Assembly (NCBI GenBank): GCA_040881685.1
Contig: JBBECS010000032.1
Span: 45,959 to 78,674 of the forward strand
Direction: 5' to 3'
Length of the DNA stretch: 32,716 nucleotides
Source of the DNA: Acidimicrobiia bacterium
GTDB taxonomy: Bacteria; Actinomycetota; Acidimicrobiia; IMCC26256; PALSA-555
Under the pieces are notes generated by a model. That model made no database searches. It was not told the origin of the DNA and saw only the letters and a program-made list of their open reading frames with translations. The position numbers and the translations under genes were made by a program. Of the stretch, positions 3,002-5,867 are shown in pieces. Within the stretch, counting starts at the first letter, position 1. Each line of letters opens with the position of its first letter.

Positions 3002-3451
3002 ATGGATGACGTCGAGCGACTCGCCGCGATCGAGGCCATCAAGGCGCTCAAAGCGCGCTACTTCCGCTGCATGGACACCAAGGACTGGGACGGCTTCAGC
3101 GAGCAGTTCGCGACCGACGCGGTGATGGACGTGTCGGGTGAGATGGGTGACGGTGCTGGCGATACAGGCATCATCCACGGAAATCGTCAGATCGCCGACT
3201 TCGTGCGCAGCGTCGTCGGAGAGGTCGTCACCGTCCACCACGGGCACATGCCCGAGATCGCCGTGACCTCACCCACGGCCGCCAGCGGGATCTGGGCGAT
3301 GGAGGACACGCTGCGTTGGCCCGAGGGTGCACCGATGCGTGACATGCACGGCTACGGCCACTACTACGAGACCTACGAGAAGCGCGACGGCCGATGGCTC
3401 ATCACGTCGCTGAAGCTCACACGACTGCGCATCGACGTCACGCCGAGCTGA
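3002..3451 (+). CDS. SnoaL-like / NTF2-fold protein
   Basis: 149 residues. The start has the usual SnoaL_4-type pattern (ERLAAIEAIKALKARYFRCMD, then 'KDWDGFSEQFATDAVMD'), a central GNRQIADFVR segment, HHGHMPEI, and a C-terminal strand 'YEKRDGRWLITSLKLTRLRI'. This is the cone-shaped NTF2 fold used by small cyclases, dehydratases and ring-hydroxylating dioxygenase beta-like proteins. The typical His/Asp pair of SnoaL-type acid-base catalysis could be supplied by HHGH and DMHGYGH. Many actinobacterial catabolic regions carry such proteins with unknown substrate. The gene ends one base before the stop codon of the convergent GlsB-like gene. Confidence 0.8.
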   Translation: MDDVERLAAIEAIKALKARYFRCMDTKDWDGFSEQFATDAVMDVSGEMGDGAGDTGIIHGNRQIADFVRSVVGEVVTVHHGHMPEIAVTSPTAASGIWAMEDTLRWPEGAPMRDMHGYGHYYETYEKRDGRWLITSLKLTRLRIDVTPS

Positions 3452-3739
3452 TCAGCGCGAAGCCCCTTCGCGTGACCGCGTGCCGTTCATCGCCCGGTAG
3501 ACGAGCAAGGCGATCACCGACCCCACGATCGAACCGATGATGCCCGAAGCTTGGATGGCGCCTTCACCGAAGTCTTCGTTGAAGAGCACGTACCCGAGAA
3601 ACCCGCCGACGAACGATCCCACGGCTCCGAGCAGCACGGTCCCCCAGAAACCAAGGGAGTCGCGCCCGGGCACGAGCAACCGGGCAACAAAGCCCGCGAT
3701 CACGCCGACCAGCAGCATGTACAGCAAGAAGCCGAGCAT
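3452..3739 (-). CDS. GlsB/YeaQ/YmgE-family stress-response membrane protein
   Basis: 95 residues, the normal size for the transglycosylase-associated family (PF04226). Three hydrophobic helices are clear: residues 1-20, about 30-52 (GTVLLGAVGSFVGGFLGY) and about 62-83 (ASGIIGSIVGSVIALLVY), with the family's 'ARLLVPGRD' loop after helix 1. The protein sits in the inner membrane and family members are induced by stress; the biochemical role is not known. A strong SD, GGAGGT (3750-3745), stands five bases before ATG 3739. A SigF/SigB-type promoter (GTTT-N16-GGGTAG, 3791-3766) lies just upstream, divergent from the same type of promoter driving the micropeptide at 3865. Confidence 0.92.
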   Translation of the reverse strand: MLGFLLYMLLVGVIAGFVARLLVPGRDSLGFWGTVLLGAVGSFVGGFLGYVLFNEDFGEGAIQASGIIGSIVGSVIALLVYRAMNGTRSREGASR

Positions 3740-3765
3740 TGAACACCTCCGTTGTCACGGAAGAA

Positions 3766-3791
3766 CTACCCGCCTACGGACCTTTCGAAAC
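3766..3791 (-). promoter_or_regulatory. SigF/SigB-type promoter for the GlsB-like gene
   Basis: The reverse strand reads GTTT (3791-3788), 16 bases, then GGGTAG (3771-3766). This matches the general-stress sigma pattern (GTTT ... GGGTAN). The predicted start site is near 3759, leaving a leader of about 20 bases that contains the SD GGAGGT. Confidence 0.65.
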
Positions 3792-3798
3792 GGCGCGA

Positions 3799-3824
3799 GT
3801 TTCGCGACCGGAGTGGTGGGGTAC
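3799..3824 (+). promoter_or_regulatory. SigF/SigB-type promoter for the 19-residue micropeptide
   Basis: The forward strand reads GTTT (3799-3802), 16 bases, then GGGTAC (3819-3824), the same architecture and spacer as the divergent promoter for the GlsB-like gene. ATG 3865 begins 41 bases after the -10 box. Confidence 0.7.
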
Positions 3825-3864
3825 ACCCTGTGCATCGCAACGTCGACACGGAGAGGAACGCGCG

Positions 3865-3924
3865 ATGTACATCGGAGTTGGAACGCTTGTCTTGATCATC
3901 GTCCTGGTCTTGCTGTTTGCCTGA
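3865..3924 (+). CDS. 19-residue membrane micropeptide
   Basis: The reading frame is ATG plus 18 codons and TGA. The product MYIGVGTLVLIIVLVLLFA is almost entirely hydrophobic after the first five residues and would make one short membrane helix. It is preceded by a very good SD, GGAGAGGAA (3850-3858), six bases before ATG, and by a stress-type promoter at 3799-3824. These two signals support a real gene despite its length. The divergent neighbour encodes a GlsB-family stress membrane protein under the same type of promoter, so the two may be co-induced and could act together in the membrane (inference). No family is named here. Confidence 0.7.
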   Translation: MYIGVGTLVLIIVLVLLFA

Positions 3925-3945
3925 CCTGAGGACCAGTGAAGTGGA

Positions 3946-5016
3946 TCAAGTGACGCGGGCTGCGCCGCTCGGGTTCCCCCAGATCGGACGTTCCGTGACC
4001 GCGTTCTTACTGCTCGACGCGTCGATGATCATGCCTCCGCCCACATAGAGCGCGACATGGCTCGAGCCGCCGGGGCCCCAGAAGATGAGGTCGCCGGGCT
4101 GGATCGCGTTGAGCGGTACGTGCGGGAGGCCCGCATATTGTGTGTTGGAGACCGTCGGGATGACCACGCCGGCGGCTTTCCATGCCATGTGCGTGAGACC
4201 CGAGCAGTCGTACGTAGGGCCCATCCGGGGGTTCTTGGAGTAGCCCGCACCCTTCACACCGCGAGCGAACGCAATCGCTTGTGCCGCACTGCCGTTCGGC
4301 GCACCCACATCGGGATACGACACCGGACCGGCTGAGTACTGCGCGCGTACCGCGGCTTCGCGCCGTGCTTGCTCCGCGGCGATCGCCGCCGCGAGCTCGC
4401 CCTTGGTCTTGTCGAGGAGCGCCTGCTGCTGGGCGCGTGCCTCTTCCACGTCGATTTTGGCTGCATTGATGGCTTCGCTCTCCGCGGCGGCTTCGTCGCG
4501 GGCACGCGCGGCCTCACCTCGCCTGACGTTCAGATCTTCTTCCGCCGCGGCGAGCTCCTGGAGCAGCCCGTCATTGCGCTTCGCCGCAACCTCGGCATAC
4601 TGGGTGCGTCGGTTCAGGTCCTCGGTGTCGGCGAAATCGAGATCGTCAATCGCGTTCCCACTCATGGATCGCCGGTACAGCGACGCCGCGTTCTTGCGCA
4701 CGAGACGCTTGATCCGCTTCACCTCTTGCTTCGCGAGCTCGATCTTGGCTTCAGCTTCGGTCACGGCCAGTGCGGCCGCGTCGCGTCGTGCCTGCGCGAC
4801 GGTGAGCTCCTGATCGAGCTCGCTGATCTGGAGATCGGTGGCCTCGATCTGGTCCTGGAGCGCGGCCGCCTCGGCGCGCTTGTCGTCGATCGACTGCGCA
4901 CCCGCAACGGGCGCGAGCCCGACCGTGACCGAAGCGGCGCACAACACGGTGGTCGCCACGAGACGCCGGCGCGCACCGCGGGGGGCGGGTCGGGGCGGCG
5001 TGGGGTGGATGCGCAT
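3946..5016 (-). CDS. Secreted NlpC/P60 peptidoglycan endopeptidase with N-terminal coiled coil (RipA-like)
   Basis: 356 residues. An Arg-rich n-region and a hydrophobic core end in VAGA-QS, a signal peptidase I site near residue 40. Residues about 43-235 form long Ala/Glu/Arg heptads (coiled coil) with a 'YRRSMSGNAIDDLDFADTED' break, as in RipA/RipC-type hydrolases. The C-terminal NlpC/P60 domain has DCSG (Cys271), SSHVALY (His320) and IDASS (Asp332). The spacings of 49 and 12 residues equal those of the mycobacterial RipA triad, with Asp in place of Glu. The enzyme should cleave stem peptides during cell separation, with the coiled coil restraining or localising it. ATG 5016 has no clear SD; an upstream GTG is possible. 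Confidence 0.88.
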   Translation of the reverse strand: MRIHPTPPRPAPRGARRRLVATTVLCAASVTVGLAPVAGAQSIDDKRAEAAALQDQIEATDLQISELDQELTVAQARRDAAALAVTEAEAKIELAKQEVKRIKRLVRKNAASLYRRSMSGNAIDDLDFADTEDLNRRTQYAEVAAKRNDGLLQELAAAEEDLNVRRGEAARARDEAAAESEAINAAKIDVEEARAQQQALLDKTKGELAAAIAAEQARREAAVRAQYSAGPVSYPDVGAPNGSAAQAIAFARGVKGAGYSKNPRMGPTYDCSGLTHMAWKAAGVVIPTVSNTQYAGLPHVPLNAIQPGDLIFWGPGGSSHVALYVGGGMIIDASSSKNAVTERPIWGNPSGAARVT

Positions 5017-5126
5017 GAGGGAGGAGTGGCGAATGTGCCCATCACGAAGCACGGGGGTACTTCGGCCGGCGAGCGCCAAGGATAGGCCGGGGTAACCGCC
5101 GGGTCGAGATCTGTCCGAAATACCCC

Positions 5127-5867
5127 TTATGCCCAACCTGTGAGGGCGCCACGGATCATCGTGTACGGCCCGGTGGGCCACCCGAAGCAGTCGATCATGA
5201 GCTGATCGACCTGCTCGGGCGTCGCCACACCCTCATCCACCACTCGCTTGGCCTCGTCCATGGCCGCCGCGTACACGCGGTTGGCGACGAAGCCCCATTT
5301 CGTGTCGGTGTCGTTGATCACCACGGGGTTCTTCCCGCACGCTGACGCGACCGCCTGGATCCGCTCCACGGTGGCGTCGGAGGTGGCGCGGGTGCGGACG
5401 ATCTCGGCGAAGCGCATGACGGGTGCCGGCGATGCCCAGTGCCATCCGATCACCCGATCGGGCCGGTCGGTCGCGGCCGCGATCGCCGCGATTGAGAAAC
5501 CCGACGTGTTGGACGCGAGGATCGTCGCCTCGGCGGCCGCGCGGTCGAGATCCCTGAACACCCGGATCTTGAGGTCGAGGCGCTCGGGAACGGCCTCGAT
5601 CACGACGTCAGCGGCGGCGGCAGCCTCGAACGACGTAGAGAGCTCGAGCCGGCCGAGCGCCGCGTCGGCATCAGCGCGGGTGAGCTTGTTCCGCTCCACG
5701 GCTCGGTCGAACCCGTAGCGCCCGGTGGTGACGTGCTCGTGGGCGCGCTCGACGGCCGCCGCATCGACGTCGAAGCACACGGTCTCGTAGCCCGCCGTAG
5801 CGGTCACCTGCGCGATGCCGCTTCCCATCACACCGGCACCGATCACGCCGATCCGCAGGTCGCTCAT
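5127..5867 (-). CDS. 3-hydroxyacyl-CoA dehydrogenase, C-terminally short
   Basis: 246 residues against about 280-290 for the family. It oxidises 3-hydroxyacyl-CoA to 3-ketoacyl-CoA with NAD+. The N-terminal Rossmann motif is GVIGAGVMGSG (residues 7-17). The catalytic region is intact: SNTSGFS near 119-125, His143 in GWHWASPAPVM, Glu155 and VANRV (Asn196). The all-helical C-terminal domain begins normally (GVATPEQVDQLM, GWPTGPYTMI) but stops at TGWA, where homologues continue through a GRKTGRGFY-type tail. I found no obvious continuation in another frame in the 110 bases before the NlpC/P60 gene. A GGAGGT SD lies nine bases before ATG 5867. It may be a natural short variant or a decayed enzyme. 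Confidence 0.82.
   Translation of the reverse strand: MSDLRIGVIGAGVMGSGIAQVTATAGYETVCFDVDAAAVERAHEHVTTGRYGFDRAVERNKLTRADADAALGRLELSTSFEAAAAADVVIEAVPERLDLKIRVFRDLDRAAAEATILASNTSGFSIAAIAAATDRPDRVIGWHWASPAPVMRFAEIVRTRATSDATVERIQAVASACGKNPVVINDTDTKWGFVANRVYAAAMDEAKRVVDEGVATPEQVDQLMIDCFGWPTGPYTMIRGALTGWA

Follow-up and report, generated by a model that had tools for sequence, protein, structure and literature searches.

Short hydrophobic micropeptides associated with SigB-type promoters and general-stress genes in Actinomycetota and other phyla

TisB and Ibs of E. coli are stress-induced membrane micropeptides and toxins, each a single hydrophobic helix in a size range of about 19–29 residues. The micropeptide family described here resembles them in length, in its one hydrophobic helix and in its link to stress. 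Unlike them, it extends across several phyla and adjoins general-stress genes; no common motif was noted, and searches with Rfam and for sigma-70-type promoters found no antisense partner at the locus under study. A second group of comparable systems comprises CsbD, GlsB/YeaQ (PF04226, Transgly_assoc) and other small proteins of SigB/SigF regulons, which as a group are frequent neighbors of the micropeptide; at the locus under study, GlsB shares its promoter type. In contrast to the micropeptide, CsbD and GlsB already have Pfam models, and they are longer (58 residues for the CsbD of locus L047, 95 for the GlsB-family protein considered below) and unrelated to it in sequence.

Among existing models, the nearest is GG_III-CTERM (NCBIfam NF041738), scanned against nine family members, the 19-residue peptide of our locus being too short for the scan. 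All nine matched over nearly the whole peptide (best E 0.0022), yet the member shown scored 16.4 bits against a curated cut-off of 22, and the name of the model denotes a C-terminal segment of longer proteins. TatA (PF02416 TatA_B_E, PRK14861), whose N-terminal membrane helix was weakly matched, was likewise rejected (6.7 bits for the member shown against a cut-off of 21; best member E 0.13); the micropeptide stops at the end of the helix and lacks the amphipathic helix of TatA. No model in Pfam, NCBIfam or PHROGs covers the family at cut-off, in agreement with an earlier note, made from the sequence alone, that standard annotation would miss the gene. A text search of open papers for MYIGIGT, MYIGVGT and MYIGLGT returned no occurrence, and a tblastn search of plasmids returned no match, a result that is uninformative since low-complexity filtering probably hides sequences of this kind. 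The family is thus previously unmodelled in the libraries searched, and was probably missed because its members are so small, too short for gene callers.

The window, a stretch of 32,716 nt from the genome of an Acidimicrobiia bacterium (GCA_040881685.1), contains at 3865–3924 on the forward strand a frame running from ATG to TGA, 19 codons plus the stop, which reads MYIGVGTLVLIIVLVLLFA. This peptide has no charged residues and a GRAVY of 2.79, as expected for the hydrophobic micropeptide that the earlier note had proposed. A Shine-Dalgarno-like run, GGAGAGGAA (3850–3858, forward strand), ends 6 nt before the ATG, at exactly the spacing claimed; for its AGGA core the distance is 7 nt. Further upstream, a promoter motif of the SigB/SigF-regulon type GTTT-N14-17-GGGWA is present at 3799–3824 (GTTTCG-N14-GGGTAC, forward strand), separated from the ATG by 40 nt. 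Facing it, a second motif (GTTTCG-N14-GGGTAG, 3766–3791, reverse strand) precedes the divergent gene for a 95-residue GlsB/YeaQ-family membrane protein at 3452–3739 on the reverse strand (PF04226, 32.9 bits, cut-off 25.3), so that the stress-type promoter and the divergence from a stress-linked membrane gene both held on inspection. Downstream, and convergent on the micropeptide, lies the gene for an NlpC/P60 protein (3946–5181, reverse strand). A second stretch of the source genome (contig C13, 27045–27174) matches the 3' portion of this NlpC/P60 gene at 82% identity and has no micropeptide match.

Searching 61 genomes (the source genome and 60 relatives) with the 19 residues gave matches in nine, including the source genome, all with weak E-values. 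On inspection of their complete sequences, the foreign matches proved to be short ORFs that start with ATG-TAY-ATH-GG and stop after 19–26 codons. Further rounds, first with an 11-peptide profile and next with one of 37 peptides, added members from the order, class and phylum; against the 11-row profile, of which it is itself one row, the window peptide scored E 5e-7 and 32 bits over positions 1–19. A degenerate DNA pattern recovered 40 stretches from a collection with one genome per species, and removal of duplicates left 66 distinct peptides, mostly starting with MYIGxGT and with stops after 19–28 codons. We define the family by a complete ORF of this length that starts with MYIGxGT or a close variant and has a hydrophobic core, a description that the window peptide fits. 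The invariance of MYIGxGT arises partly by construction in the DNA-pattern subset, because the pattern fixes the first codons; the protein searches carried no such constraint and gave MYIG in most members, with MTIG, MEIG, VYIG and MYIGGG as variants. Exactly 19 residues are found in 19 of the 66 peptides, among them the window peptide, MYIGIGTLVLIIILLIVLT (L004) and VYIGLGTLVLIIILILLFA (L133), while the others mostly have 21–28, and the longer class frequently closes with RR and a single further residue. One open frame in a Candidatus Microthrix MAG (L058, 3534–3962, reverse strand) contains both a CsbD domain and the micropeptide with no intervening stop, possibly a fusion of CsbD to a membrane anchor, possibly a sequence error.

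Nineteen codons easily arise by chance, and the frame of the window also extends in the upstream direction, giving a 61-codon ORF that starts at a TTG. The frame could be a chance one, encode a leader peptide or belong to a non-coding RNA, in each case with no function for the peptide. Against this, the comparative data speak strongly: pN/pS is 0.34 in the class of 19–20 residues and 0.32 in that of 22–26, pointing to purifying selection on amino acids, and mean entropy at codon positions 1, 2 and 3 is 1.06, 0.08 and 1.46 bits. The near-fixed second position is due in part to composition, the peptide being made up of I, L, V and F, whose codons all have T there, and pN/pS is therefore the better measure. 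This combination of amino-acid conservation and third-position change is the one that the earlier note had suggested looking for in relatives. The length classes are exact, Shine-Dalgarno cores precede 50 of the 66 family members (12% of random positions), and folding of the local RNA does not exceed that of shuffled sequences (z −0.21). We therefore consider a frame without peptide function very improbable, and the window frame is, as judged from these comparisons, very probably a genuine gene.

The family reaches several bacterial phyla, with relatives in Bacteroidota, betaproteobacteria, Chloroflexota and phages, and its distribution is patchy. At E 0.001, a threshold at which search sensitivity is limited for peptides this short, matches occur in 26 of 395 genomes of the class and 11 of 396 of the phylum, and in none of the genus and family relatives. 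Carriers include the named isolates Streptomyces sp. AcH 505 (7 of 150 genomes of its genus match at E 0.001), Trebonia kvetii, Actinomadura sp. DC4 and Flavitalea sp. BT771. A sister species (genome G001, contig C7, 41058–44195) retains the NlpC gene and, after it, a GlsB remnant truncated at the 5' end, and has neither the micropeptide nor the two promoters; this piece seems to have been lost there by deletion. The expectation that relatives would conserve the frame thus held in dozens of other genomes, mostly with a Shine-Dalgarno sequence, but not within the genus and family. Given this patchiness, the micropeptide is dispensable for the stress response.

The promoter type would connect the gene to a general-stress sigma factor. 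The window contains three SigB-type sites where 0.3 are expected, and the whole genome has 25 occurrences of GTTT-N14-17-GGGWA, compared with 11 of the reversed control. Two of the 25 are the divergent pair of the window and five lie on contig C6 around a SigBFG gene, the only one in the genome over the cut-off (TIGR02980, 271.8 bits, cut-off 234.35). This gene stands in an apparent rsb-type order (L107, contig C6, 5500–19000), preceded by the gene for an ATPase-like protein and followed by genes for a short antagonist-like protein and then a large PAS/GAF-sensor-like protein, where the identities other than the sigma factor come from sequence reading, with local HMM support for the ATPase. 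One motif site lies just upstream, and the several GTTTCG-N14-GGGWA sites in and around this apparent operon suggest autoregulation.

The same type recurs upstream of the homologues. Among the 65 loci with enough upstream DNA, 19 have a SigB-type motif within 150 nt, compared with 1.5% of random control windows, and nine of these motifs start at −57 to −62; the other 46 have no recognizable site. The copy of Trebonia kvetii has a GTTT...GGGTAG site. An unbiased count of every 4-mer/5-mer pair at spacings of 14–18 over 60 upstream regions placed GTTT/GGGTA at the top with 12 occurrences, the next pair reaching 6 and the best pairs in random windows 5–8. Promoters of SigB homologues in S. coelicolor agree with this consensus, for example SCO3557p, GTTTGC-N14-GGGTAC (PMC8346170).

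Gene neighborhood leads to the same association. In 21 of the 66 loci, a CsbD, PRC-barrel, DUF6458, GlsB, RsbW-type or SigB-type gene lies within 1 kb of the micropeptide, a count that is somewhat favorable because distances were measured to stop-to-stop frames and because the same neighbors had served to build the local HMMs. The families were picked after inspection of the neighbors, and representatives were confirmed with Pfam. Only two further loci have a stress gene solely beyond 1 kb, even though more DNA was scanned far (182 kb) than near (132 kb). Together with the promoter counts, these neighbors support the stress link that had been proposed for the micropeptide. The idea that relatives would carry the frame beside GlsB-family genes stands for general-stress genes as a group; GlsB as a universal partner was rejected, being a neighbor only in the window among the 66 loci.

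Micropeptides often regulate a neighboring membrane protein, and membrane or stress genes are adjacent or on the same strand in several loci. The peptide might accordingly be a small subunit or regulator of one membrane protein next door, GlsB in the window and DUF6458 or PRC-barrel proteins elsewhere. Since the neighbor varies between loci and is often soluble (CsbD, RsbW-type, SigB-type), no single fixed partner fits, and we hold this explanation to be improbable.

The main rival explanation is a small membrane-active toxin of the TisB, Ibs or Hok kind, which would lower membrane potential on stress and promote dormancy, perhaps restrained by antisense RNA or by occlusion of the start codon. 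The size and hydrophobicity of the micropeptide suit such peptides, a stress-type promoter is present in the window, and the start codon there can pair with the 5' leader in a hairpin of 9–10 bp (3829–3872, forward strand). Across the family, however, such hairpins are not enriched (15 of 65 homologues, against 31% of control positions). Rfam gave no match at the locus, and no sigma-70-type promoter for an antisense RNA was found on either strand of 3400–4300, a search that other promoter types would escape. The micropeptide is usually single copy, tandem arrays are absent, and its steady company consists of protective stress genes. Full MYIGxGT micropeptides also occur on seven viral contigs (L134–L140, IMG/VR). 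Two of these placements would suit a toxin, one copy lying 13 nt after an endolysin gene (L135) and another immediately behind a holin-like gene (L140). On a further contig (L139), the micropeptide directly follows the terminase small subunit gene. A purely protective role in the host leaves the viral copies unexplained, which counts against our preferred explanation; a toxin nevertheless appears unlikely to us.

We consider it likely, with some reserve, that the window encodes a real micropeptide under SigB/SigF-type control, which would form one membrane helix and stabilize or tune the membrane during stress. Coding conservation, promoter motif and gene association are computed results, from which we infer translation, sigma dependence, membrane insertion, topology and the protective role. 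On stress, a SigB/SigF-type sigma factor would transcribe the micropeptide and also, from the facing promoter, the divergent GlsB-family gene. The product would be one hydrophobic helix inserted in the cytoplasmic membrane, a span made feasible by its charge-free character and length, and by the positive-inside rule the terminal RR of the longer class would place the C-terminus on the inside. The conserved GxG suggests helix packing, and the head Y-I-G-x-G-T probably packs on the helices of a partner or is located at the lipid interface. Because of the SigB-type control and the stress neighbors, the most likely role is to stabilize or adjust the membrane, or one of its proteins, during stress, alongside CsbD, GlsB, PRC-barrel and DUF6458 proteins.

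A broader proposition, for which we see the case as evenly balanced, is that this unrecognized family forms a recurring component of the bacterial general stress response in Actinomycetota, works by one shared membrane mechanism that its Y-I-G-x-G-T head determines, and has relatives in Bacteroidota, betaproteobacteria, Chloroflexota and phages. A gene family conserved across phyla is without a model in the libraries searched, probably by reason of a length too short for gene callers, and would represent a probable stress gene family overlooked through its small size. Since named isolates are among the carriers, the question is open to bench testing. The micropeptide is one more candidate effector for the SigB-type response, in which the roles of its neighbors CsbD, GlsB and DUF6458 are themselves poorly understood.
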